Source: Cytophagaceae bacterium
Lineage (GTDB): Bacteria > Bacteroidota > Bacteroidia > Cytophagales > Spirosomataceae
Reading direction: 5' to 3'
Length of the DNA stretch: 64,000 nucleotides
Assembly: GCA_027486845.1 (NCBI GenBank)
Contig: JAIXOL010000078.1
Span: 62,001 to 126,000 of the forward strand
In this document: positions 387-63,121 of the stretch, in pieces
Layout: every line of letters begins with the position of its first letter
Numbering within the stretch: position 1 is the first letter of the stretch
Program-made: the position numbers and the translations under genes
Notes under the pieces: generated by a model
What the model saw: the letters and a program-made list of their open reading frames with translations, nothing else
The model's database searches: none
Told to the model about the DNA's origin: nothing

Positions 387-574
387 AATTAAGAATGTAG
401 AATTAAGAATTAAGAATGGTGGTTTTTATATGATTTTAAACCATAATCAATCAAAAATCTTGTTTATTCAATAATAAAATGAAAATAATTCACAAAGATA
501 GCTATTTTTTATGCTTATCCCTAAAATGCTTTTTTGAGAAAAATACTCAATTCTACATTCTTAATTCTTAATTA
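387..574. repeat. Inverted pair of heptad-repeat arms (aattaag aatgtag aattaag aattaag / aattcta cattctt aattctt)
   Basis: 387-421 in 7-bp units; 549-574 in 7-bp units; 18-bp perfect inverted match 387-404 vs 549-566. Confidence 0.75.
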
Positions 575-3527: not shown

Positions 3528-3543
3528 ATTCAATTAGACAATA

Positions 3544-3630
3544 ATCAGTGAACAATTATCAATTAATCTTCGAGTATTAAATTTTGTTTTTAAAACATCT
3601 CTGTGTGATAATTGATAATTGTTCATTGAT
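3544..3630. repeat. Inverted heptad-repeat element between convergent genes
   Basis: Arms 3544-3565 and 3609-3630, 21/22 complementary; units cagtgaa caattat caattaa / tgtgata attgata attgttc attgata. Confidence 0.7.
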
Positions 3631-3638
3631 ATTTGAAA

Positions 3639-9067: not shown

Positions 9068-9113
9068 TATGAGTAAACTCATAAACTAAAACTCATAACC
9101 GCACGGGCGGACA
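9068..9113. repeat. Heptad array (tatgagt aaactca taaacta aaactca) ending in GC-rich core ccgcacgggcggac
   Basis: 7-bp periodicity with inverted tatgagt/actcata; core resembles those near 58.29 and 58.33 kb. Confidence 0.6.
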
Positions 9114-22812: not shown

Positions 22813-22819
22813 AAATTTT

Positions 22820-22868
22820 GACAAGAGATATTAGACAATGACATCTATTGTCCCTTGTCTAATATCTC
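22820..22868. repeat. Seven-unit heptad hairpin (gacaaga gatatta gacaatg acatcta ttgtccc ttgtcta atatctc)
   Basis: 14-bp perfect stem 22825-22838/22855-22868, 16-nt loop, 12 nt before an ATG. Confidence 0.75.
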
Positions 22869-22879
22869 GCTTCACAAAT

Positions 22880-23674
22880 ATGAATTTACAAGAAATTTGC
22901 CAACAAACAGTAGAAGTGGCTCAAGAAGCTGGGGCATTTATTGCCCAAGAATCAGCTAAATTTAATCGAAATTCGGTTGAGTATAAAGATGTAAACAACG
23001 TAGTATCTTATGTTGACAAAGAAACTGAAAAGTTAATCGTCAGCCGTCTGCGTGAGATTTTACCAACAGCAGGTTTCATAACAGAAGAAGGCACAGCTGA
23101 CTCCTCAGACCTTGAAGGTTTAAATTGGATTATAGATCCACTCGATGGAACAGCCAATTTTATTCATGGTTTACCCAATTATTCTGTAAGTTTGGCCTTG
23201 GCTCGTGGAAAAGAGGTTTTAGTGGGAGTGGTATATAATGTTTGTACAAAAGAAACATTTTCGGCGATTAAAGGTGGTGGTGCATTTAAAAATGGTGAAA
23301 AAATACAAGTTTCGCCAATTAAACATTTGGGGGAAAGCCTACTCGCTACTGGATTTCCGTATTATAAATTTGAAAATCAAGATAAATACTTGCTTATTTT
23401 GGAATCATTAATGCAAAAAACGCACGGTTTACGCCGAATGGGTTCAGCAGCAATTGATTTGGCTTATACAGCTTGTGGATATTTTGATGGTTTTTATGAA
23501 TACAACCTAAATTCGTGGGATATGGCCGCAGGAATTTTACTCGTAACTGAAGCGGGTGGTTTTGCCACCGATTTTTTAGGTGGAGATAACCATCTTTTTG
23601 GTGGTGATGTCGTTGTTGGTTCAGCCGTACATGCCGAACTATTGGCCGAAATTCAACGTTATTGGATAAAATAG
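22880..23674 (+). CDS. Inositol monophosphatase family protein
   Basis: GFITEEG, WIIDPLDGTANFIHGLPNYSVS, NSWDMAAGILLVTEAGG motifs; start moved to 22880. Confidence 0.92.
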   Translation: MNLQEICQQTVEVAQEAGAFIAQESAKFNRNSVEYKDVNNVVSYVDKETEKLIVSRLREILPTAGFITEEGTADSSDLEGLNWIIDPLDGTANFIHGLPNYSVSLALARGKEVLVGVVYNVCTKETFSAIKGGGAFKNGEKIQVSPIKHLGESLLATGFPYYKFENQDKYLLILESLMQKTHGLRRMGSAAIDLAYTACGYFDGFYEYNLNSWDMAAGILLVTEAGGFATDFLGGDNHLFGGDVVVGSAVHAELLAEIQRYWIK

Positions 23675-23731
23675 TCAATTAATAATTGTGATTAGCAAAT
23701 TGATATTTTTGAATTAAAAATTTTCAAGTTT

Positions 23732-24265
23732 ATGGATTTAGAGAAATCGGGCTTCGTGTTGCTAAAATACCCAATTGGTGATTTTGAATATGGAAAGAAA
23801 TATTCAAAGTCTGATACTCGTATGCATATTAAAGTTTTAGAGGAATTACCCCAAAGATTAAAGGCTTTGACTGCAAAACTATCTGATGCTCAATTAGATA
23901 CACCATATCGACCCGATGGTTGGACGGTTCGTCAAGTAGTACATCACATTGCAGATAGCCATATCAATATGTTTACTCGTGTGCGTTTTGCCTTGACCGA
24001 AGAAAATCCGCCAATTAAAGGTTATGACGAAGCTGCTTGGGCATTATTACCCGACCATTCTTTGCCTATTAAGCCATCTTTGCAGATTATTGAAGGTTTA
24101 CACAAACGTATGGTAGTACTTTTCAAAAGCCTTGATAAGGAAGGTTTAAAGCAAACTTATTACCATGCAGGCTACAAGAAAACGTTTGAAATTCAGGAAG
24201 TCATTGCCATGTATGCTTGGCATTCGGAGCATCATTTTCAACACATTATTCAGGCATTAAAATGA
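23732..24265 (+). CDS. YfiT/BstA-like DinB-superfamily bacillithiol transferase
   Basis: YRPDGWTVRQVVHHIADSHINMFTR and AMYAWHSEHHFQHI metal-binding His pattern. Confidence 0.87.
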   Translation: MDLEKSGFVLLKYPIGDFEYGKKYSKSDTRMHIKVLEELPQRLKALTAKLSDAQLDTPYRPDGWTVRQVVHHIADSHINMFTRVRFALTEENPPIKGYDEAAWALLPDHSLPIKPSLQIIEGLHKRMVVLFKSLDKEGLKQTYYHAGYKKTFEIQEVIAMYAWHSEHHFQHIIQALK

Positions 24266-24411
24266 TAGAAAATATATTTATTGGACTTGTTTTCTTGGGG
24301 GCGGTAGCTTATTTAGTGAATACTGTACGAAAACAATTTTCCCCAAAATCTTCTGGTTGTGCTAGTTGTGCAGGCAATTGTCAAGTTGGTAAAATAGAGA
24401 ATCCTATTTAA
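24262..24411 (+). CDS. FeoB-associated Cys-rich membrane protein
   Basis: MIENIFIGLVFLGAVAYLVNTVRKQFSPKSSGCASCAGNCQVGKIENPI, one TM plus CxxCxxxC. Confidence 0.8.
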   Translation: MIENIFIGLVFLGAVAYLVNTVRKQFSPKSSGCASCAGNCQVGKIENPI

Positions 24412-24412
24412 A

Positions 24413-24457
24413 ATTCATAAAAAAAGTGCATCTTGTGATGGCACTTTTTTTATGAAT
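24413..24457. terminator. Bidirectional terminator between convergent genes
   Basis: attcataaaaaaagtgc ... gcactttttttatgaat, 17-bp perfect stem, 11-nt loop. Confidence 0.88.
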
Positions 24458-24465
24458 CGCGTATC

Positions 24466-25248
24466 TTACATTTGAGTAAAAGTCCCTTCATCCAAAATCT
24501 GATAAGCGTGTTCTTTTCCTAAATATTTGTCAATAATATTATGAGCCAAATAGATTAATGGTGTAAGTAAAATTGCCACTGCAAATTTATAAATATAATT
24601 ATTTGTACCAGTAGTAAGTACTTCTGTAATAGTCCAATTGCCAAAAACATAAAATGCTATAAAAACCACAACAAAACTATCAATTAGTTGAGAAACTAAT
24701 GTAGAACCTGTAGCTCTCAGCCAAATCATTTTATTGTTGGTATATTTTCTAAGCCAATGAAAAACGGTAGCGTCTAAGATTTGTCCAACCAAAAAGGCCG
24801 TAATTGACCCCAAGATAATTCCAAGTCCTTGTCGGAAAATGATACCATACGCATCATTGATATTCAAGAAATTTCCTGCTTTATCTTTATTGTTATGATT
24901 TACCCAAAAATCAGCGGGTGAAACAATCGTAGAAATATAGATAATGATAAAAGCATAAGCTATCAAAATGGCTGTTAAATAAGAAATTTTCTTTACACCA
25001 CTTTTCCCAAAATACTCATTAATAATATCAGAGGTAATAAAAACAAATGGCCAGTTCAGAACCCCAGCCGACATATTAAAATTAAATTTTTGCCCAAAAA
25101 GCGGTATTTGCAATGGGTCAATGCCAAGAGTGGCTTCAACCGAAAAGATTTTAGCACCAATCACCTCCGCCACGACGGCATTGGTCAAGAAAATCCCGCA
25201 CAAAACAAGATAAAGTGTTTGTTTTTTAGTTTTTAGTGATTCTGACAT
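24466..25248 (-). CDS. Queuosine precursor transporter (VUT/YhhQ family)
   Basis: Multi-TM; FVFITSDIINEYFGKSGVKKISYLTA, GQILDATVFHWLRKYT, STLVSQLIDSFVVVFIAF. Confidence 0.9.
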   Translation of the reverse strand: MSESLKTKKQTLYLVLCGIFLTNAVVAEVIGAKIFSVEATLGIDPLQIPLFGQKFNFNMSAGVLNWPFVFITSDIINEYFGKSGVKKISYLTAILIAYAFIIIYISTIVSPADFWVNHNNKDKAGNFLNINDAYGIIFRQGLGIILGSITAFLVGQILDATVFHWLRKYTNNKMIWLRATGSTLVSQLIDSFVVVFIAFYVFGNWTITEVLTTGTNNYIYKFAVAILLTPLIYLAHNIIDKYLGKEHAYQILDEGTFTQM

Positions 25249-25259
25249 TTTTTATTTAA

Positions 25260-25325
25260 TGTAGAGTGATGAATGTAGAGTTTAGAATGAAGTGATACAT
25301 TCTTCATTCTAAACTCTACACTAAT
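25260..25325. repeat. Heptad-repeat hairpin overlapping the stop codon of the ABC ATPase gene
   Basis: tgtagag tgatgaa tgtagag tttagaa tgaagtg / cattctt cattcta aactcta; 19-bp perfect stem 25274-25292/25302-25320. Confidence 0.78.
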
Positions 25326-25969
25326 ATAATTCCATCTTGCATAACCAATTTTCGGTCGGCCATATTTGCCAAATGTTCGTTATGAGTAATAATAACAAAT
25401 GTCTGATTGAATTGTTTTCTTAGTTCAAAAAACAATTGATGTAATTCTTCCGCATTTTTTGAGTCGAGATTTCCACTTGGTTCATCGGCAAAAACCACCG
25501 CTGGAGAGTTGATTAATGCCCTCGCAACCGCTACACGCTGTTGTTCGCCCCCCGAAAGCTCCGATGGAAAATGTTTAGCTCTATCTTTCAGTCCCAGCAA
25601 TTGAAGCAAATCTTCTGCTCTTTTAGTTGTATCTGCATTATCTTTTCCACCAATCCAAGCTGGTAAACATACATTTTCGATGGCAGTAAATTCGGGCATA
25701 AGATTATGAAACTGAAAAATAAAACTAATTTTTTCGTTTCTAAACTTGGCCAGTTCTTTGTCTTTTAAGGCACTATAATTAATTCCATTGAGTAGAACCT
25801 CGCCAGAATCTGCCTTATCAAGCGTGCCTAAAATTTGTAAAAGTGTAGTTTTTCCTGCTCCAGATGCTCCCACAATCGAGATTACTTCTCCTTGATTTAT
25901 CTCTAAATCTATTCCTTTTAAAACTTGTAAGTTTCCGTAGTTTTTCTTAATGTTCTTAGCTGTTAGCAT
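25316..25969 (-). CDS. ABC transporter ATP-binding protein, LolD-like
   Basis: [45 protein letters not shown]. Confidence 0.92.
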
Positions 25970-25979
25970 ATATTTTATT

Positions 25980-27863
25980 TTACCAATTGGTGAATAAGGT
26001 GATTTTCTCCAAATTTGTTTTGTTTATTTCAAAAAGTCCATTCTGTGACCCAACATATATATATGAATTACAGACACAGAAGCAAGTTATGCCTTCTTTA
26101 AAATTGTCAATTATTGGATTTTTTAATACTTCAAATTTTTCACTTGTTGACTTTATGATATTTCCATTTCCAAGTAAAATCCATAACGTATTATTATCAA
26201 AGTACATTTTATAAAAACTGGTATTTTTAAAAGTTGGAAGCTTATAGTCAGGAATACAAATAACACCATTTGAGGTTGTTAAAATATTTTTATTTGTTAG
26301 AAAGAAAAGGTTGTTTTTTATATCGTTTTGTGATTGAATTACTGTTTGATTCTGGAATTCAAATTTACCATTTAACGCATCGTATTTATAGACTAATGAT
26401 GAATATTCGCCTTTTCCTGCCCAAATAAAACCTTCCTTATCTTTTTTGACAAAATTGATATATTCATCGTGCCTCTGATTTGGATTTAGTTGAAACCTCT
26501 CTGGTATGAAACTTCGATTATACCTAAAAAGTCCTTCTCTGGTTCCAATCCACAAGTTTTTATCATTATCAAATATAAATGAATTTATTTCGTCGTTGTT
26601 GAGACCGTTGTTATTTCTATCAAAAACTTCCCAATTGTTGTTTTTTAATTTTAATAAACCCGTGGATGTTCCAAACCACCGAGTTCCATCATTTGAGCTC
26701 GAAAAATCATGAACATATTTGTAATTGAAATTTCCTATTTTTTCCAAATCATAGCTTACCCAATCTTTTCCATTGAATTTGTGTAATCCTTTAGAAGCAT
26801 TAATCCAAAGGGTATCATTATTGCAGAAAAAATTTGAAATAGTATTGCTTTCGAGTGGATTGTCTGATGGGATAACGCTTTTAAAGGTGTTGTTTTCAAA
26901 TTTATAAACACTTCCCAAAGTATAGCTCACATAAGCATTATTGGCTTCATCCAACTTAATTTGAGATGCCATATTAGAGGTTTCGTCATTGTAAAAAAAC
27001 GTCCAATCTTTATTATTGTATTGTAAAATACCGTTGGAACTAGCAAACCATTTAGTATCATTTTTGTCTATTACGATTTCATTTACACCCGCAAAATTAG
27101 GGTTATCGTCAAACCGTATTTTACTCCATTTAGCGGTTTTGCTATCATAAAATCCAATTGCACTTTTTGGAATGATACCTACCCATATATTGTCGTTCTG
27201 GTCAATTCCATGGGAAATTATTGAAATTCGACTCCCAAGTTCCTTGAAAAGACCATCTGTATCAATTTTGGTTAATGTGCTGAATTTTAAATCAAATTTA
27301 TAGATTTCTTTGTAAGTTGATAACCATAAATTTTGTTTGAAGTCAATACTAACACTCGAAATATTCTCAATTTTATTTATTCCTGTGTTTTTGAATATTT
27401 TTACATCTTTTCGGTTGAAAACGAAAAGCTGTCCCAATGAGTCAATAATCCATTTCTGTTTATTTCTATCAATGACAAATAGTTTTAATTTTTTGAGTGG
27501 AAGGATGACTAAATGTTGCTTTAACGTATCAATCGGACGAAAGGTCTCCCCATCATATATTGTGTATTTGGGTGCTGATGTGTTTTGTATCCATAATTTA
27601 CCTTCTTCATCCATTCCGGTGAAATAACTTCTTTGTGAATGCCTAGAAAAATTCTGTTTGATTAGCTCATTTTTTTGCGTTTTCAGGTTTTTCTTAAAAA
27701 TTCCAATCGTGTTTTCCCAGTAAAAATCACTTTCACTGACGAAATAAGACCCAACTTCCTTTTTAGTGTAATAATGCTTATACTTATTTACTTGTGCAAA
27801 AACTTTGGTAACATGGAGTAACAGAAATATTAAAGCCAGAAGTAATATGTTTGGTTTTTTCAT
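25980..27863 (-). CDS. Secreted two-component-regulator-type beta-propeller protein lacking a kinase domain
   Basis: Repeated IWx[39 protein letters not shown] blades; ends without TM or histidine-kinase segment. Confidence 0.75.
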
Positions 27864-28005
27864 AAATTAGGATTTTCAATCACTACTTGTAAGAATCGCT
27901 GTTATTAAATTTGTTATAAATCTAAATGATAAAATTTTGCTTAAAAATAAGCCTTTTTTGCATATAATTTTTCGTAAATTTTAATCTTACAGCAAATTAG
28001 CAATA

Positions 28006-28047
28006 AATTGATAATTGATAATTGATAATTCATAATTGTTCACTAAT
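28006..28047. repeat. Heptad array aattgat x3, aattcat, aattgtt, cactaat
   Basis: Direct 7-bp periodicity upstream of sucC. Confidence 0.75.
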
Positions 28048-37426: not shown

Positions 37427-37433
37427 TTTTATT

Positions 37434-37500
37434 GATATTAGATGTTCGAGTTTTGATGCTTTGAGAAACTAAAATTCGAACATCAAAACCCAAACATAAA
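37434..37500. repeat. Heptad-repeat inverted element between fumC and csaA-like gene
   Basis: gatatta gatgttc gagtttt gatgctt / aactaaa attcgaa catcaaa acccaaa; 13/14 stem 37441-37454/37471-37484. Confidence 0.7.
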
Positions 37501-37504
37501 TGGT

Positions 37505-43050: not shown

Positions 43051-43177
43051 TAGTAATGATTTTGGATTTGGACAAATAAACGGATTAATTCATTTGAAAT
43101 TCTTTATTATGTTTGAAAATAAGAATTTTTCATTCATCATTCGTAACTCGTAATTGGTCAATTTTATTTAGTCAAAA

Positions 43178-44160: not shown

Positions 44161-44188
44161 CTAATTGTTGATTGATAATCGTTAATTG
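44161..44188. repeat. Heptad array ctaattg ttgattg ataatcg ttaattg overlapping the parA stop codon
   Basis: Four consecutive 7-bp units of shared word nnaattg. Confidence 0.6.
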
Positions 44189-44964
44189 TCAGCACTGAGT
44201 TTTCCATTTTTGACCAAAATTTCACGTGCCAGGTTTAGATAACTAATTGCACCTTTACTATCCGCATCTTGAGCAAGTGCGGGTACTCCATAGCTAGGAG
44301 ATTCTGAAAGTCGGATATTTCGTGGAATTAGCGTTTGAAAAACCATATTTTTGAAGTGCGTCGTAACTTCATGCACAACTTGATTTGATAATCTAACCCT
44401 CAAATCATACATTGTCAATAAAATGCCTTCAATCGTTAGGGCAGGGTTGAGGCGTTGTTGAATAATTTTAATGGTATTCAATAACTTCCCGAGTCCTTCT
44501 AAGGCAAAATATTCGCATTGAACAGGTACAATAACTGAATCTGCAGCTGTTAGGCTATTGATAACAATTAATCCCAACGATGGCGAGCAGTCAATAATGA
44601 TAAAATCGTACATGTCTTTTACATCCATGAGCGACTCTTTCATTTTTTCTTCACGTTTAGGAAGGTTAATCATCTCAATTTCAGCACCAACTAAATCGAT
44701 ATGCGATGGGAGCAAATCAAGATTGGGAAAATCGGTTTCAATGATTATATCACGTGGACGAATATCGTCTACCATACATTCATATATACTGTTTTCAACC
44801 TCCTTTGGATTAAAACCCAATCCAGAAGTGGCATTAGCCTGAGGGTCTGCATCAATGATGAGCGTACGGAATTCTAAAGCAGCCAAGCTGGCTGCAAGAT
44901 TAATTGTGGTTGTGGTTTTGCCTACACCACCTTTTTGATTGGCAATTGCTATTATTTTTCCCAT
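44182..44964 (-). CDS. parA: ParA/Soj chromosome partitioning ATPase
   Basis: NQKGGVGKTTTTINLAASLA, DADPQANATSGLG, DCSPSLGLIVINSL. Confidence 0.97.
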   Translation of the reverse strand: MGKIIAIANQKGGVGKTTTTINLAASLAALEFRTLIIDADPQANATSGLGFNPKEVENSIYECMVDDIRPRDIIIETDFPNLDLLPSHIDLVGAEIEMINLPKREEKMKESLMDVKDMYDFIIIDCSPSLGLIVINSLTAADSVIVPVQCEYFALEGLGKLLNTIKIIQQRLNPALTIEGILLTMYDLRVRLSNQVVHEVTTHFKNMVFQTLIPRNIRLSESPSYGVPALAQDADSKGAISYLNLAREILVKNGKLSADN

Positions 44965-45025: not shown

Positions 45026-45068
45026 AAATGTTCCACGCTGTGGGTAAAATGTTCCACGATGTGGATAA
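45026..45068. repeat. Two tandem 21-bp repeats aaatgttccacgMtgtggRta: parS-like half site plus DnaA-box-like half
   Basis: TGTTCCACGCTGTGGGTAA at 45029 and TGTTCCACGATGTGGATAA at 45050; TGTGGATAA is the reverse complement of TTATCCACA. Confidence 0.75.
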
Positions 45069-51527: not shown

Positions 51528-51562
51528 ACACACTTTATCAATAATCCGTTATATTGCAGTTA

Positions 51563-51684
51563 GACAATGAGTAAATGAGTGAATGATTGAATTTGCGAAT
51601 TAAATTTTTCGCCAAAATAGAAATTCAATTCTCCTTATCACAATCTAAATAGTTTACTCATTCTCTCAATCAATCATTCAAAAT
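51563..51684. repeat. Octad-repeat arms in opposite orientation upstream of clpC
   Basis: gacaatga gtaaatga gtgaatga ttgaattt (51563-51594) and tttactca ttctctca atcaatca ttcaaaat (51653-51684). Confidence 0.7.
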
Positions 51685-51692
51685 TATTTCAA

Positions 51693-54233
51693 ATGGAGCC
51701 TAAATTTTCACAGAAAGTCAAAGAAATCATAACCTTAGCCCGTGAAGAAGCATTACGACTGGGGCATGATTATATCGGAACCGAACACTTGATTTTGGGG
51801 ATGATAAGGGATGGTGAGGGAATTGCTCTAAATCTATTGAGAGATTCAGGCGTACAACTTGACGAACTACGCATCACTATTGAGCAAGCCACAAAAGGCA
51901 CTGCAACCAACAATATTAAAAATTTGGCGAATATTCCGCTTACTCGCCAGTCTGAAAAAGTTTTGAAAATTACTCATCTTGAGGCTAAAATTTTTAAATC
52001 ACAATTGATAGGTACTGAGCATTTGTTGTTAGCCATTTTGCGTGATGGTGATAACCTAGGCGGACAAATTTTGCAAAAGTTCCAACTTAATTACGAACAA
52101 ACAAAAGAAATGCTTGAGTATCAACTAACTGGTCAGAAACCTGTGATGGAACGTCCAGAGACTGACGATGATGATGAAAGAATCTTCGGCGGCGGTACGG
52201 GTGGATATCAGCAAAAAGGAGAACAGAAAAATCCTGAAAAATCTAAAACTCCTGTTTTAGATAACTTCGGACGTGACCTTACTAAATTTGCCGAAGCTGG
52301 TAAACTCGACCCGATTGTAGGACGTGAAAAAGAAATTGAGCGTGTTGCTCAAATTCTTTCAAGACGTAAGAAAAATAACCCGATTTTGATTGGTGAGCCT
52401 GGTGTTGGTAAAACCGCCATTGCTGAAGGTTTAGCTCTCAGAATTGTGCAAAAAAAAGTTTCAAGAATTTTATTCGGGAAACGTGTCGTGACGCTAGATT
52501 TAGCTTCATTGGTAGCGGGAACAAAATACCGTGGCCAGTTTGAAGAGCGGATGAAGGCTGTAATGAATGAGTTGGAGAAATCACCAGATGTGATTTTGTT
52601 CATTGATGAGATTCATACAATTGTAGGTGCAGGTGGTGCAAGTGGCTCACTCGATGCCTCAAATATGTTTAAACCTGCTTTGGCTCGTGGCGATATTCAA
52701 TGTATTGGTGCAACAACCCTTGATGAGTACCGTCAGTATATTGAAAAAGATGGAGCTTTGGCTCGTCGTTTCCAAATGGTTATGGTTGAAGCAACTTCAA
52801 TCGACGAAACCATCGAAATCTTGAATAACATTAAAGATAAGTATGAAGACCATCATCATGTTAGTTATACGCAAGGTGCTTTAGAAGCTGCTGTAAAATT
52901 ATCAGAAAGGTATATTACTGATCGCTATTTACCTGACAAAGCCATTGACGTTTTGGATGAAGTTGGTGCGAGAGTACACATTAATAATATTTCTGTTCCA
53001 CAAGATATTTTGTTTTTGGAAGAACAAGTTGAGTTAATAAAGAAAGAGAAAAACCAGGTGGTGAAGAGCCAACGCTACGAAGAAGCTGCTCAACTCCGTG
53101 ATCGTGAGAAAAAACTTTTAGAACAACTCGACAAAGCCAAATTGTCTTGGGAAGAAGAAGCGAAATCAAAGCGTTATACTGTAACAGAAGATCACGTTGG
53201 CGATGTTGTGGCAATGATGACGGGTATTCCAGTGAAGCGTGTCAACATGAATGATGGCGAGAAAATTTTGAATATGGGCGACGCTCTTCGTGGTAGAATC
53301 GTTGGTCAAGACCCAGCAGTTGAGAAACTCGTAAAATCAATTCAGCGGACTCGTGTTGGATTGAAAGACCCTAAAAAACCAATCGGTTCGTTTATTTTTT
53401 TAGGGCCAACGGGTGTAGGAAAAACCGAATTAGCTAAGACACTTGCAACGTATCTTTTCGATAAAGAAGATGCTTTAGTAAGAATTGATATGAGTGAATA
53501 CATGGAGAAATTCAGTATTTCTCGTTTGGTTGGAGCACCTCCAGGCTATGTTGGCTACGAAGAAGGTGGTCAATTAACCGAGAAAATCCGTAGAAAACCG
53601 TATTCTGTTATTTTACTTGATGAGATTGAAAAAGCACACCCAGATGTTTATAATATCTTATTGCAGGTACTTGACGATGGTATTCTGACTGATAGCCTTG
53701 GTAGACGAGTAGATTTTCGTAATACAATCATTATCATGACTTCAAATATTGGAGTTCGTGACTTGAAAGATTTTGGTACAGGCATTGGTTTCGCAACTAA
53801 ATCACGGACAGATAATCAAGATGATATTGTGAAAAGTACGATTCAAAATGCTTTGAAGAAAACTTTCTCGCCCGAATTCTTGAACCGGCTTGATGATGTA
53901 ATTGTGTTCAATTCATTGAGCCGTGAAGACATTCATAAGATTATTGACATCGCTCTTGGTCGTTTAATTGCTCGCATTACAAACATTGGTTATAATATTT
54001 CTTTGACAGATAAAGCAAAAGATTTTTTGTCTGAAAAAGGGTATGACCAACAATATGGTGCAAGACCATTGAACCGTGCGATTCAGAAATATGTGGAAGA
54101 TCCATTGGCAGAAGAAATTTTGAAAGGAGATGTTCAAGAAGGAGATACTATCGTTGTCGATTATATCGGAGAAGGAGAAACACTTTCGTTTGGGCGTGCC
54201 AAAATAGAAGAGTCAATCGAAAATAATCAGTAA
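51693..54233 (+). CDS. clpC: ATP-dependent Clp protease ATP-binding subunit ClpC
   Basis: Clp_N repeats, GEPGVGKTAIAEGLA, UVR-like NQVVKSQRYEEAAQLRDREKKL, GPTGVGKTELAKTLA, ARPLNRAIQKYVEDPLAEEIL. Confidence 0.97.
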   Translation: MEPKFSQKVKEIITLAREEALRLGHDYIGTEHLILGMIRDGEGIALNLLRDSGVQLDELRITIEQATKGTATNNIKNLANIPLTRQSEKVLKITHLEAKIFKSQLIGTEHLLLAILRDGDNLGGQILQKFQLNYEQTKEMLEYQLTGQKPVMERPETDDDDERIFGGGTGGYQQKGEQKNPEKSKTPVLDNFGRDLTKFAEAGKLDPIVGREKEIERVAQILSRRKKNNPILIGEPGVGKTAIAEGLALRIVQKKVSRILFGKRVVTLDLASLVAGTKYRGQFEERMKAVMNELEKSPDVILFIDEIHTIVGAGGASGSLDASNMFKPALARGDIQCIGATTLDEYRQYIEKDGALARRFQMVMVEATSIDETIEILNNIKDKYEDHHHVSYTQGALEAAVKLSERYITDRYLPDKAIDVLDEVGARVHINNISVPQDILFLEEQVELIKKEKNQVVKSQRYEEAAQLRDREKKLLEQLDKAKLSWEEEAKSKRYTVTEDHVGDVVAMMTGIPVKRVNMNDGEKILNMGDALRGRIVGQDPAVEKLVKSIQRTRVGLKDPKKPIGSFIFLGPTGVGKTELAKTLATYLFDKEDALVRIDMSEYMEKFSISRLVGAPPGYVGYEEGGQLTEKIRRKPYSVILLDEIEKAHPDVYNILLQVLDDGILTDSLGRRVDFRNTIIIMTSNIGVRDLKDFGTGIGFATKSRTDNQDDIVKSTIQNALKKTFSPEFLNRLDDVIVFNSLSREDIHKIIDIALGRLIARITNIGYNISLTDKAKDFLSEKGYDQQYGARPLNRAIQKYVEDPLAEEILKGDVQEGDTIVVDYIGEGETLSFGRAKIEESIENNQ

Positions 54234-58222: not shown

Positions 58223-58229
58223 CTTTAGT

Positions 58230-58345
58230 TTTGACCGGACCGCCGCAGTGGTTCTGAATTATGGGTTCTTAGTTTAATACTCAGTTTTAACCGCTTTGGC
58301 GGACTACTCAGGATTCAGAACTCTCAACCCCGCTACGGCGGACCG
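58230..58345. repeat. Composite palindromic intergenic element: heptads plus three GC-rich cores
   Basis: Outer arms accgccgcagtggttctgaatt / attcagaactctcaaccccgctacggcggac; central aaccgctttggcggac; gttctga attatgg gttctta gtttaat actcagt heptads. Confidence 0.72.
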
Positions 58346-58355
58346 TTCAAAAGTT

Positions 58356-61292: not shown

Positions 61293-61386
61293 AATGATTG
61301 AATGCCTTTATGATTGAATGATAGAATAATTATTTATAGATTAACTTAATTTTCCATTCACTCATTCAAACATTTACTCATTCAAA
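61293..61386. repeat. Octad-repeat arms in opposite orientation upstream of rbfA
   Basis: aatgattg aatgcctt tatgattg aatgatag and cattcact cattcaaa catttact cattcaaa. Confidence 0.7.
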
Positions 61387-61394
61387 ATTAGAAA

Positions 61395-61772
61395 ATGATG
61401 GAATCCAAAAGACAAAGACAAGTAGCAAAACAGATTCAAAAAGATTTAGGTGAGATTTTTCAAAAGGACTTGAAACAATTATTTAATGGAGCCTTTGTAA
61501 CAATCACAGACGTGAAAACAACGCCAGATTTGGCTATTGCAAGGGTTTATTTGAGTTTTTTATTAGCAAAAGATAGAGAAGGCGTTTTACAAATAATCAG
61601 AGAAAATACCAAAGTTATTAGAAATCTATTGGGTGAGAGAGTGCGTCACCAACTACGAATTGTGCCGAATTTGCAGTTTTTTATTGATGATACAGCTGAA
61701 TATGCTCAAAAAATGGATGCTCTTTTTGCAGGAATTGTAATTCCCCCCGCACCGGTTGAGGACGAAGAATAA
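61395..61772 (+). CDS. rbfA: 30S ribosome-binding factor RbfA
   Basis: RQRQVAKQIQKDLGEIFQ, ITDVKTTPDLAIARVYLSFL, RHQLRIVPNLQFFIDDTAEYAQKMDALF. Confidence 0.93.
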   Translation: MMESKRQRQVAKQIQKDLGEIFQKDLKQLFNGAFVTITDVKTTPDLAIARVYLSFLLAKDREGVLQIIRENTKVIRNLLGERVRHQLRIVPNLQFFIDDTAEYAQKMDALFAGIVIPPAPVEDEE

Positions 61773-61802: not shown

Positions 61803-63005
61803 GTGAATCTTTCGTTTCTAATCGCTAAAAAATATTTTTTTTCAAAAAAGAAAAAGAGTTTCATCAATTTCATCTCTATTATTTCTATGCTTGGCATCGG
61901 CATCGGAACAATGGCGTTGGTGATTGTGTTGTCGGTTTTTAATGGCTTAGAAGAGCTTAATCGCAAAATTTTTAAATCTTTTGATGCTGATATTAAGATT
62001 TCGCCGAAAAGTGGAAAAAGTTTTTTGCTTGATAAAACCAAAATAGCCCAAATAAAAGCAATAAAAGATGTCTGGTATGTAACTGAAGTGATTCAAGATA
62101 ATGCACTCGTGAAATACCAAAACTCACAAATGGTGGTCACCCTTAAAGGTGTAGATGAAACATTTCAAGCTTATAGTCCTCTGAAGAAATCATTGGTAGA
62201 GGGGGATTTTGTATTGTCAAAAGATAGTGTTGATTATGCATTTATTGGTGGAAATGTTTATGCGGCCTTGAATATTTCCTTACAAAATATTATTGAACCT
62301 ATTGAAATTTGGTATCCACGGAATCGAAAATCTATTTCTTTAAATCCAGAAGATGATATTAATCGTGAGATTCTAAATATTTCGGGAGTTTATTCATTGG
62401 AGCAACTTCACGATGATTTCATTTATGTTCCGCTTGAGGTAGCAAAACAACTGACCGAGTATGAAGACAAAAGAAGTGCTATTGAGATTCAGGTAAAACC
62501 CAATGCTGATATCTTTCAAATTCAGGCATCAGTAAAAAGTATTTTAGATGAAAATTTCTTAGTTCAAAATCAAGATGAACAAAATGCTTCATTATTTAGG
62601 GCAATCAAAATCGAAAAATTATTTATTTTTATTGCTTTGTTGTTTATCATTTGCATTGCTTCATTTAATATTTTCTTCTCTTTGACAATGCTTGTGATTG
62701 ACAAACAACAAGATTTGAAAACACTTTTCGCAATGGGGGCAGATGAAGGATTAGTAAAGCGTATTTTTTATTCAGAGGGAGCATTAGTTTCATTTATTGG
62801 AGCTATAGTTGGCCTTGTTTTGGGTGGATTGATTTGCTATTTTCAAGAACGATATGGTATTATAAAAATAGGAATTGAAAGTTCATTTATTGATGCTTAT
62901 CCAGTAAAAATGCAATTAAGTGATTTTTTATTAACTGCCATTTCTATAATTGTTATTACACTTTTAGCTTCTTATTTGCCAGCAAAAAGAGCTGCAAAGA
63001 ATTAA
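61803..63005 (+). CDS. ABC transporter permease, LolC/LolE/FtsX-like, GTG start
   Basis: NLSFLIAKKYFFSKKKKSFINFISIISMLGIGIGTMALVIVLSVFNGLEEL; C-terminal four-TM FtsX topology. Confidence 0.9.
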   Translation: MNLSFLIAKKYFFSKKKKSFINFISIISMLGIGIGTMALVIVLSVFNGLEELNRKIFKSFDADIKISPKSGKSFLLDKTKIAQIKAIKDVWYVTEVIQDNALVKYQNSQMVVTLKGVDETFQAYSPLKKSLVEGDFVLSKDSVDYAFIGGNVYAALNISLQNIIEPIEIWYPRNRKSISLNPEDDINREILNISGVYSLEQLHDDFIYVPLEVAKQLTEYEDKRSAIEIQVKPNADIFQIQASVKSILDENFLVQNQDEQNASLFRAIKIEKLFIFIALLFIICIASFNIFFSLTMLVIDKQQDLKTLFAMGADEGLVKRIFYSEGALVSFIGAIVGLVLGGLICYFQERYGIIKIGIESSFIDAYPVKMQLSDFLLTAISIIVITLLASYLPAKRAAKN

Positions 63006-63121
63006 TAATTAAAAATTAAGGATTTAATGTAGATTATCGGTTGAATTGTTTTTTCAGAAATCAAGCCTTACAAAATTATATTGAGAACGATACGCTTAAA
63101 TCGTAATTTGTAAAACCCAAA

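Follow-up and report, generated by a model that had tools for sequence, protein, structure and literature searches.

Intergenic heptamer arrays in a Spirosomataceae genome and its relatives: a recurrent 7-bp period, lineage-specific words and frequent inverted pairing

Introduction

Can arrays of short tandem repeats keep their period and their place in a genome while their sequence is replaced, and which process might then maintain them? This question is raised by a 64,000-bp stretch of DNA from a Cytophagaceae bacterium of the family Spirosomataceae (GenBank assembly GCA_027486845.1, contig JAIXOL010000078.1, positions 62,001–126,000; G000:C14:62001-126000 in our numbering), hereafter called the window, which has a G+C content of 34.7% and is part of a 5.36 Mb draft genome of 82 contigs (G000, called this genome below). 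In an earlier note on the window, intergenic arrays of 7-bp units (heptads) and sometimes 8-bp units (octads), often in inverted pairs, were taken for a possible undescribed repeat class with nothing but the period in common, probably generated by slippage combined with template switching rather than by spread of one mobile sequence. These arrays were compared here with the remainder of this genome, with genomes of the same genus, ten of which were available, and with other Bacteroidota.

Results

Period 7 was scored locally at a fixed lag (+1 for a match, −1 for a mismatch, cut-off ≥12), intergenic pieces being compared with their own dinucleotide shuffles, and genome-level counts were taken from sampled stretches of first 464 kb and then 664 kb (approximately 12% of the genome). 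In the first 464 kb, 27 intergenic segments were found at lag 7 compared to 1.8 ± 1.2 in shuffles, besides 20 at lag 14 (0.8 in shuffles) and five at lag 8 (1.6 in shuffles), the rest being near background. In 664 kb, lag 7 reached 37 segments compared to 1.2, with harmonics at lag 14 (29 vs. 1.0) and lag 21 (12 vs. 0.6) and a mildly raised octad series (lag 8, 7 vs. 2.4; lag 16, 8 vs. 1.4); lags 4–6, 9, 11, 12, 15, and 17–20 were at about background, and lags 10, 13, and 22 gave 3–5 segments vs. 0.8–2.2. Plain autocorrelation gave z = 6.0, 5.0, and 5.8 for lags 7, 14, and 21, and 5.2 for lag 8. When the test was split into coding and intergenic DNA (464 kb sample), the 7-bp periodicity was concentrated in the latter, with 41 lag-7 segments per 100 kb in intergenic DNA compared to 1.7 per 100 kb in coding DNA. 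Period 7 is thus confirmed as real and intergenic at the genome level. A 50 kb control from Escherichia coli showed no segments at any lag, and is weakly informative because only 3.6 kb of it is intergenic.

The arrays were found close to gene ends: 64% lay no more than 10 bp from a gene boundary compared to 31% for random placement within the same regions (reached in 0 of 1000 placements), 19 of these boundary arrays being at stops and 10 at starts. The start distances are rough because genes were called simply as open reading frames beginning at their first ATG. Array density per 10 kb was 4.5 in tandem, 5.3 in convergent, and 2.5 in divergent regions.

Among the named genomes searched, the succinyl-CoA synthetase gene product SucC of this genome was nearest to those of Dyadobacter and Larkinella, with 80% protein identity, and on this ground the bacterium was assigned to the Cytophagales. 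Across 80 loci around sucC from named Bacteroidota, with 148 kb of intergenic DNA, 36 arrays were found, and lag 7 stood at 24 per 100 kb intergenic, followed by lag 14 (13.5), lag 8 (12), and lag 16 (7.4), with the remaining lags at 1.3–6.1 and coding lag 7 at 1.1 per 100 kb; 11 of the 36 arrays had an inverted partner ranking in the top 5%. Abundance was uneven within the genus, with 37 intergenic lag-7 segments in 98 kb of this genome and 8 in 26 kb of G004, and few in G008 (1 in 21.5 kb), G007 (2 in 21.7 kb), and G003 (1 in 33.7 kb).

Orthologous intergenic regions were located via their flanking genes in G006, G010, G004, G008, and G007, of which G006 showed approximately 89% intergenic identity to this genome where alignable. 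Where this genome had a lag-7 segment (score ≥9), the ortholog also had one in 39 of 81 comparisons vs. 12 of 219 elsewhere (odds ratio 16, P = 3e-16), in comparisons that pool three relatives and are non-independent, the G006 and G010 loci having been chosen for arrays in this genome. Retention was also seen at lags 8 and 9, on far fewer cases. Plain descent contributes to site retention, most strongly in G006.

Three outcomes were seen at orthologous sites. At some, exemplified by C44 62917 and C3 133529 in G006, the array was kept with small changes. At others, the site and the 7-bp period were kept and the word was replaced, in line with the interpretation in the earlier note, and in the clearest cases both arms of an inverted pair had changed. 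At C3 142045 both arms were rewritten, being TTCTGAG/TTCAGAA in this genome, AATGAAG/AATAAAG in G006, and AATGGAG/GATAATG in G010; at C14b 136031, the TTCTGAG of this genome and G006 was matched in G010 by TTATGAG, again in both arms; and at C44 72833 the words across genomes were AATTGAT, AATTTTT, and AATTCGT. In the window, region 51528–51692 contained octads in this genome and heptads in both arms in G004 (AATTAAG/AATGTAG and CTACATT/CTTCATT), while TTCTGAA was found decayed at C14b 58223 in this genome and clean TTCTGAG pairs were present in G004. In the third outcome the array was exchanged for a terminator-like hairpin, a plain hairpin or another dispersed palindrome. The orthologs of 3528–3638 in G008 and G007 resembled classical bidirectional terminators with a hairpin flanked by A/T runs, those of 37427–37504 in G004, G008, and G007 were unrelated plain hairpins at the same site, and dispersed palindromes were found at C61 39827 in G006 and at 22813–22880 in G006 and G004 (palindrome GACAGGTT), the latter site having hairpins of different sequence in G010 and G008. 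Consensus words of 42 same-site array pairs were identical in 16, different at one position in eight, and different at two or more of the seven positions in 18. Units inside single arrays agreed to approximately 66–100%, including arrays where the species differed.

The words turned out to be less free than supposed in the earlier note, which held that the loci have the period alone in common. An exact 14-mer was shared with another locus by 25 of 38 loci, and 80 locus pairs had a common word compared to a mean of 42 and a maximum of 72 in 500 column permutations within arrays. The recurring units were AATTAAG, AATGTAG, and AATGAAG, with further families AATTGAT and TTCTGAG, and the units had a G+C content of 25%. 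Pattern AATKWAGAATKWAGAAT was counted 47 times in this genome, 36 in G006, 43 in G010, 94 in G004, 23 in G007, 8 in G008, and 0 in G003 (reversed control, 0 to 6 in each genome). Among eight genomes outside the genus, four were without it, three had 1–6, and one had 17. TTYTGAG triplets were found in 14 of 247 Bacteroidota genomes, and GATTDCA repeats were limited to two other genomes of 16. The three word families AATTAAG/AATGTAG, TTCTGAG, and AATTGAT are thus largely genus-specific. Because the word families are mostly bound to the genus while lag 7 recurs across Bacteroidota, the vocabulary is a property of the lineage and the period is wider.

Also the claim that arms are often reverse complements, sometimes with units permuted, was borne out. 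Arrays scored 13.8 on average against the reverse complement of their own flanks compared to 10.05 for the flanks of other arrays, and the own-flank match ranked in the top 5% for 17 of 45 arrays. Five paired loci of the window folded as RNA far better than their shuffles (z −4.6 to −8.1), the unpaired array at 28006 giving z +0.27. In the four genomes having at least 10 convergent regions, 62–100% of such regions contained a strong inverted repeat (z > 3). Because paired arrays fold strongly and convergent regions mostly hold inverted repeats, heptad pairs may fill a stem-loop place that is filled otherwise in other species. Paired arrays often occupy sites of ordinary stem-loops in relatives, and probably act as, or stand in for, stem-loops in the intergenic DNA at the ends of genes. 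Transcription termination by short-loop pairs between convergent or tandem genes is plausible, and it is doubtful for the wider-spaced pairs around promoters and leaders (387/542 and 51566/51657).

Coordinates of the window loci are given in Table 1. At the nine loci for which the earlier note claimed exact heptad phrasing, tested with 500 shuffles each, the claim stood in part. Lag-7 phrasing was strong at four (387–574, 3544–3630, 25260–25325, and 28006–28047; 0 of 500 shuffles each), moderate at 44161–44188 and weak at 37434–37500 (P = 0.046), and it was not significant at 9068–9095 (lag-7 score 0), 22820–22868 (P = 0.08), and 58251–58290 (P = 0.25); nonetheless, 37434–37500 and 22820–22868 are strong hairpins. 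Octad phrasing held at both loci named, 51563–51684 (0 of 500 shuffles) and 61293–61386 (P = 0.018). Gain or loss of units between relatives, also expected in the earlier note, was seen at single sites: the 542–573 arm had one extra 7-bp unit in G006 and consisted mostly of ATTCTAC in G010 and G004, and the 25260–25320 hairpin was alike in G006 and had a 3′ arm 7 bp shorter in G010. No array was found at the 28006–28047 site in G010. The 43125–43158 array was absent at the orthologous site in G004, G008, G007, G006, and G010, and the 44161–44188 stretch was not seen in G004, G008, and G007.

Table 1. Heptad and octad features of the window (positions within the window; z, RNA fold score).
Feature	Position	Strand	Remarks
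Heptad arm AATTAAG/AATGTAG, left arm of inverted pair in divergent intergenic region	387–417	+	Lag-7 score 16; G004 ortholog rich in AATGTAG
Heptad arm, vocabulary the reverse complement of 387–417; directly upstream of TANNTTTG-like promoter box and gene at 607	542–573	−	Lag-7 score 15
Left arm of inverted pair, convergent genes on either side	3544–3570	+	Pairs with 3606–3636; z −4.7/−4.8 per strand (3528–3638)
Heptad array TGATAAT/TGTTCAT, right arm	3606–3636	+	Lag-7 score 14; inverted rank 0.00
Hairpin with perfect 14-bp stem GAGATATTAGACAA, weak heptad phrasing	22824–22868	.	z −8.1 (22813–22880)
Heptad hairpin TGTAGAG/TTTAGAA/TGAAGAA, between ABC-transporter ATPase gene 25316–25969 and its downstream neighbor	25260–25320	−	z −7.9 (25249–25320)
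Lone AATTGAT array without inverted partner, upstream of sucC-like gene	28006–28037	+	Lag-7 score 23; z +0.27
Hairpin GATGTTC/GAGTTTT, weak heptad phrasing	37434–37496	−	z −6.4 (37427–37504)
Heptad array ATTTTTCATTCATCATTCGTAACTCGTAATT	43125–43158	−	Lag-7 score 13
Short heptad-phrased stretch TTGTTGATTGATAATCG	44161–44188	+	Lag-7 score 8, moderate (P = 0.002)
Octad arm AATGAGTG/AATGATTG	51566–51601	+	Lag-8 score 16
Octad arm, reverse-complement vocabulary; ~11 bp upstream of start codon at 51693	51657–51681	−	Locus-level shuffle test
Inverted pair with TTCTGAA/TTCAGAA fragments, convergent genes on either side	58245–58330	.	z −4.6 (58223–58355)
Octad arm AATGATTG	61293–61330	+	Lag 8 and lag 16
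Octad arm CATTCACT/CATTCAAA, adjoining start codon of gene at 61395	61355–61386	−	Locus-level shuffle test
Heptad array AATTAAA, overlapping stop codon of gene 61803–63005	62997–63024	+	Lag-7 score 13

Other repeats were encountered at or near these sites. GACAGGTTxxAACCTGTC palindromes, repeated in G006, stand in place of the 22813–22880 hairpin in G006 and G004. Dispersed intergenic repeats CCCCTAACCCCCAGAGGGGGAA or CTCCCCTCTCATGTGGAGAGGGG were found in the G006 orthologs of C14b 123554 and C61 39827 (loci L230 and L238) and at C61 6496–7237 of this genome (L175), and in G006 repeats of these types occupy sites of this genome's heptad pairs. The G007 ortholog of 369–606 (L144) contained an insertion of approximately 1 kb in the divergent region, the complement of which is transposase-like by appearance. 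At 45026–45068, upstream of gene 44182–44964, a 21-bp tandem repeat AAATGTTCCACGATGTGGATA was kept in G004, G008, and G007.

Discussion

The data lean modestly towards heptamer repeats that are made by slippage, that are homogenized by further slippage inside each arm and by template switching from one arm to the other, and that are used as interchangeable intergenic stem-loops, and slippage with template switching, as proposed in the earlier note, was the best-fitting explanation. Heptamer, and less often octamer, tandem repeats would arise by slippage in intergenic DNA, many of them as two inverted arms; from coding DNA they are excluded. The units of one arm would be kept alike by 7-bp steps of replication slippage or of unequal exchange, and template switching between the inverted repeats at replication would keep both arms alike; both steps are suggested by the species comparison. 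One changed unit could then spread through both arms, which would explain why sites stay in place with the same period although species of 77–90% nucleotide identity have different words there. Homogenization of inverted-repeat arms by template switching is known from phage, E. coli, and yeast (PMC8604942, PMC7202029), and for the 7-step the contact length of the polymerase was proposed by Mrazek, as cited in PMC4679880. The terminator-like use of the pairs would likewise fit their folding potential.

Several observations weigh against this explanation. A clear inverted partner was wanting in more than half of the arrays. At C44 72833 in G010 each arm had a different word, which shows that not all arms are homogenized. 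Within a genome, arm-to-arm identity was 0.73–0.78 whatever the species distance and exceeded same-arm identity between species (0.68 for G006, 0.63 for G010, 0.54 for G004, and 0.48 for G008), which speaks for the explanation; yet the arms were picked for high mutual identity, so that the first figure is biased upward and part of the difference is a selection effect, and the fall of the second is as divergence predicts. Among indels of 5–9 bp compared to G006, those of 7 bp made up 7 of 18 in arrays and 20 of 113 elsewhere, which is marginal (P = 0.046), and pooled over three relatives the enrichment was not significant (P = 0.44), the alignment of diverged repeats blurring it; the expected gain and loss of units is seen at single sites, with at most a marginal general excess. 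Besides, words common to dozens of unlinked loci go beyond local slippage and would need an extra step, either ectopic template switching (copying) or parallel origin. It is very unlikely that the heptads are instead the product of some polymerase, primase or repair activity that has so far gone unrecognised and has a 7-nt step of its own, copying along an arm, to the inverted arm and at times to unlinked loci, with a lineage's own vocabulary as the result.

Chance periodicity of A+T-rich intergenic DNA, picked by eye, could be invoked for the three of nine listed heptad loci that do not beat their shuffles, but it is refuted by the genome-level lag-7 excess in both samples (in 664 kb, 37 segments vs. 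1.2 expected, besides the harmonics at lags 14 and 21), and G008 showed no signal (1 vs. 0.8 in shuffles) although its G+C is lower; we give it practically no weight. A rather unlikely alternative is purely compensatory evolution of functional terminator hairpins, with the 7-bp rhythm as a by-product of A+T-rich stems. Most convergent regions do contain strong inverted repeats, and several sites alternate between a heptad pair and a terminator-like hairpin. However, strictly periodic arrays without a partner exist (28006–28037), pairs flank promoters in divergent regions, and the signal is specific to lag 7 compared to lags 5, 6, 9, and 11 and is missing from shuffles of the same dinucleotide composition. 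Selected regulatory elements, with heptad-spaced sites close to start or stop codons that a regulator binds in RNA or DNA (a role proposed for TAACTGA in Beggiatoaceae), would agree with the accumulation at gene boundaries (64 vs. 31%) and with sites being kept between species. We consider them unlikely, as the swapping of the word at the same site in close relatives is hard to reconcile with a sequence-specific binder, and the boundaries include stops (19) besides starts (10), with variable orientation and distance.

The improbable reading as a dispersed mobile family with decayed copies, mobilized as miniature inverted-repeat transposable elements (MITE), repetitive extragenic palindromes (REP) or by REP-associated tyrosine transposases (RAYT), draws on the vocabulary common to dozens of loci per genome and largely genus-specific, on sites having an array in one species only, and on the presence of RAYT-like Y1_Tnp genes (1–10 matches per genome). 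On the other hand, no fixed element ends or core were seen and the words differ widely; heptads flanked 0 of 18 inspected Y1_Tnp loci, many of which carry short palindromes of their own, and the relation between the number of Y1_Tnp genes and heptads was not significant (Spearman 0.62, P = 0.14, n = 7). One fixed mobile sequence was rejected because words differ between genera; there was no match to Rfam at gathering score within the window, and the loci are not copies of one sequence, in agreement with the earlier note on this point. Around many of the Y1_Tnp genes (PF01797; L262–L279 of G000, G004, G007, and G006), palindromes CCTCCAGCTTTAGCTGGAGG, GGGTTTGCAAACCC, CTCCGTCAGGAG, TTTCACCTACGG, and others were found, the motif varying from gene to gene, which points to several distinct RAYT-REP families in one genus.

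Two further candidates were rejected. Three-frame stop codons as a selected feature gave no clear signal, because shuffled units reached 84% with a stop on either strand compared to 89% of the real ones. Loss of mismatch repair as a cause was rejected, a MutS_I match within a single long open frame being present in all eight same-genus genomes tested, whether heptad-rich or not.

Comparison with Known Systems

Heptamers of period 7 with fixed words are known as intergenic STRR repeats in filamentous cyanobacteria, a different phylum.

Heptanucleotide units are the most abundant class of long simple sequence repeats in most prokaryote genomes, for which polymerase slippage was proposed (Mrazek, 2007, as cited in PMC4679880 and PMC4692102); as cited there, the repeats are long and simple, and imperfect, inverted, and species-rewritten arrays are not part of the description. 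The bacterial heptamer excess has been noted since 2007 and is not known to have a tested cause. Heptad-rich species (this one and G004) and nearly free ones (G008 and G003) form a natural comparison for the 7-bp step, slippage, and template switching, and the genus, with dozens of sites that have the period while their words change, allows stem-loop replacement at gene ends to be traced species by species.

The TAACTGA direct repeats found by MacGregor (2015; PMC4679880) in Beggiatoaceae, Cyanobacteria, and five Bacteroidetes are similar to the present arrays in being intergenic tandem heptamers, some over stop codons or just 5′ of starts, with other heptamers intermixed and with indels in 7-nt increments between close strains, and in their presence in Bacteroidetes. 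As described in that paper, they consist of one fixed word, in the main species mostly as direct copies located 5′ of starts, whereas several genus-specific words, often in inverted pairs and replaced at orthologous sites, were found here; TAACTGA formed no doublets in 664 kb of this genome and was contained in none of its arrays. The G-rich heptamers GGGAATC and GGGGAYT of Xanthomonas and Nostoc (Rehm, 2015; PMC4692102) share intergenic over-representation, some inverted pairs, and extensive variation in length and sequence among close species where the flanking gene pair is the same. They are reported there as quadruplex-forming, whereas the present arrays are A+T-rich, and neither word gave a doublet in the sample from this genome. 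Template-switch homogenization (PMC8604942; E. coli quasipalindromes, PMC7202029) is similar in that one arm templates the other and the arms change in concert, and differs in concerning single short inverted repeats without heptad units.

An excess of heptamers, their location between genes, their inverted pairing, and their variation from species to species were thus already reported elsewhere (PMC4679880, PMC4692102), so that the arrays do not form the undescribed class claimed in the earlier note. What the comparison of sequences adds is the lineage vocabularies, the replacement of words in both arms at conserved sites, and the exchange of arrays with terminator-like hairpins.

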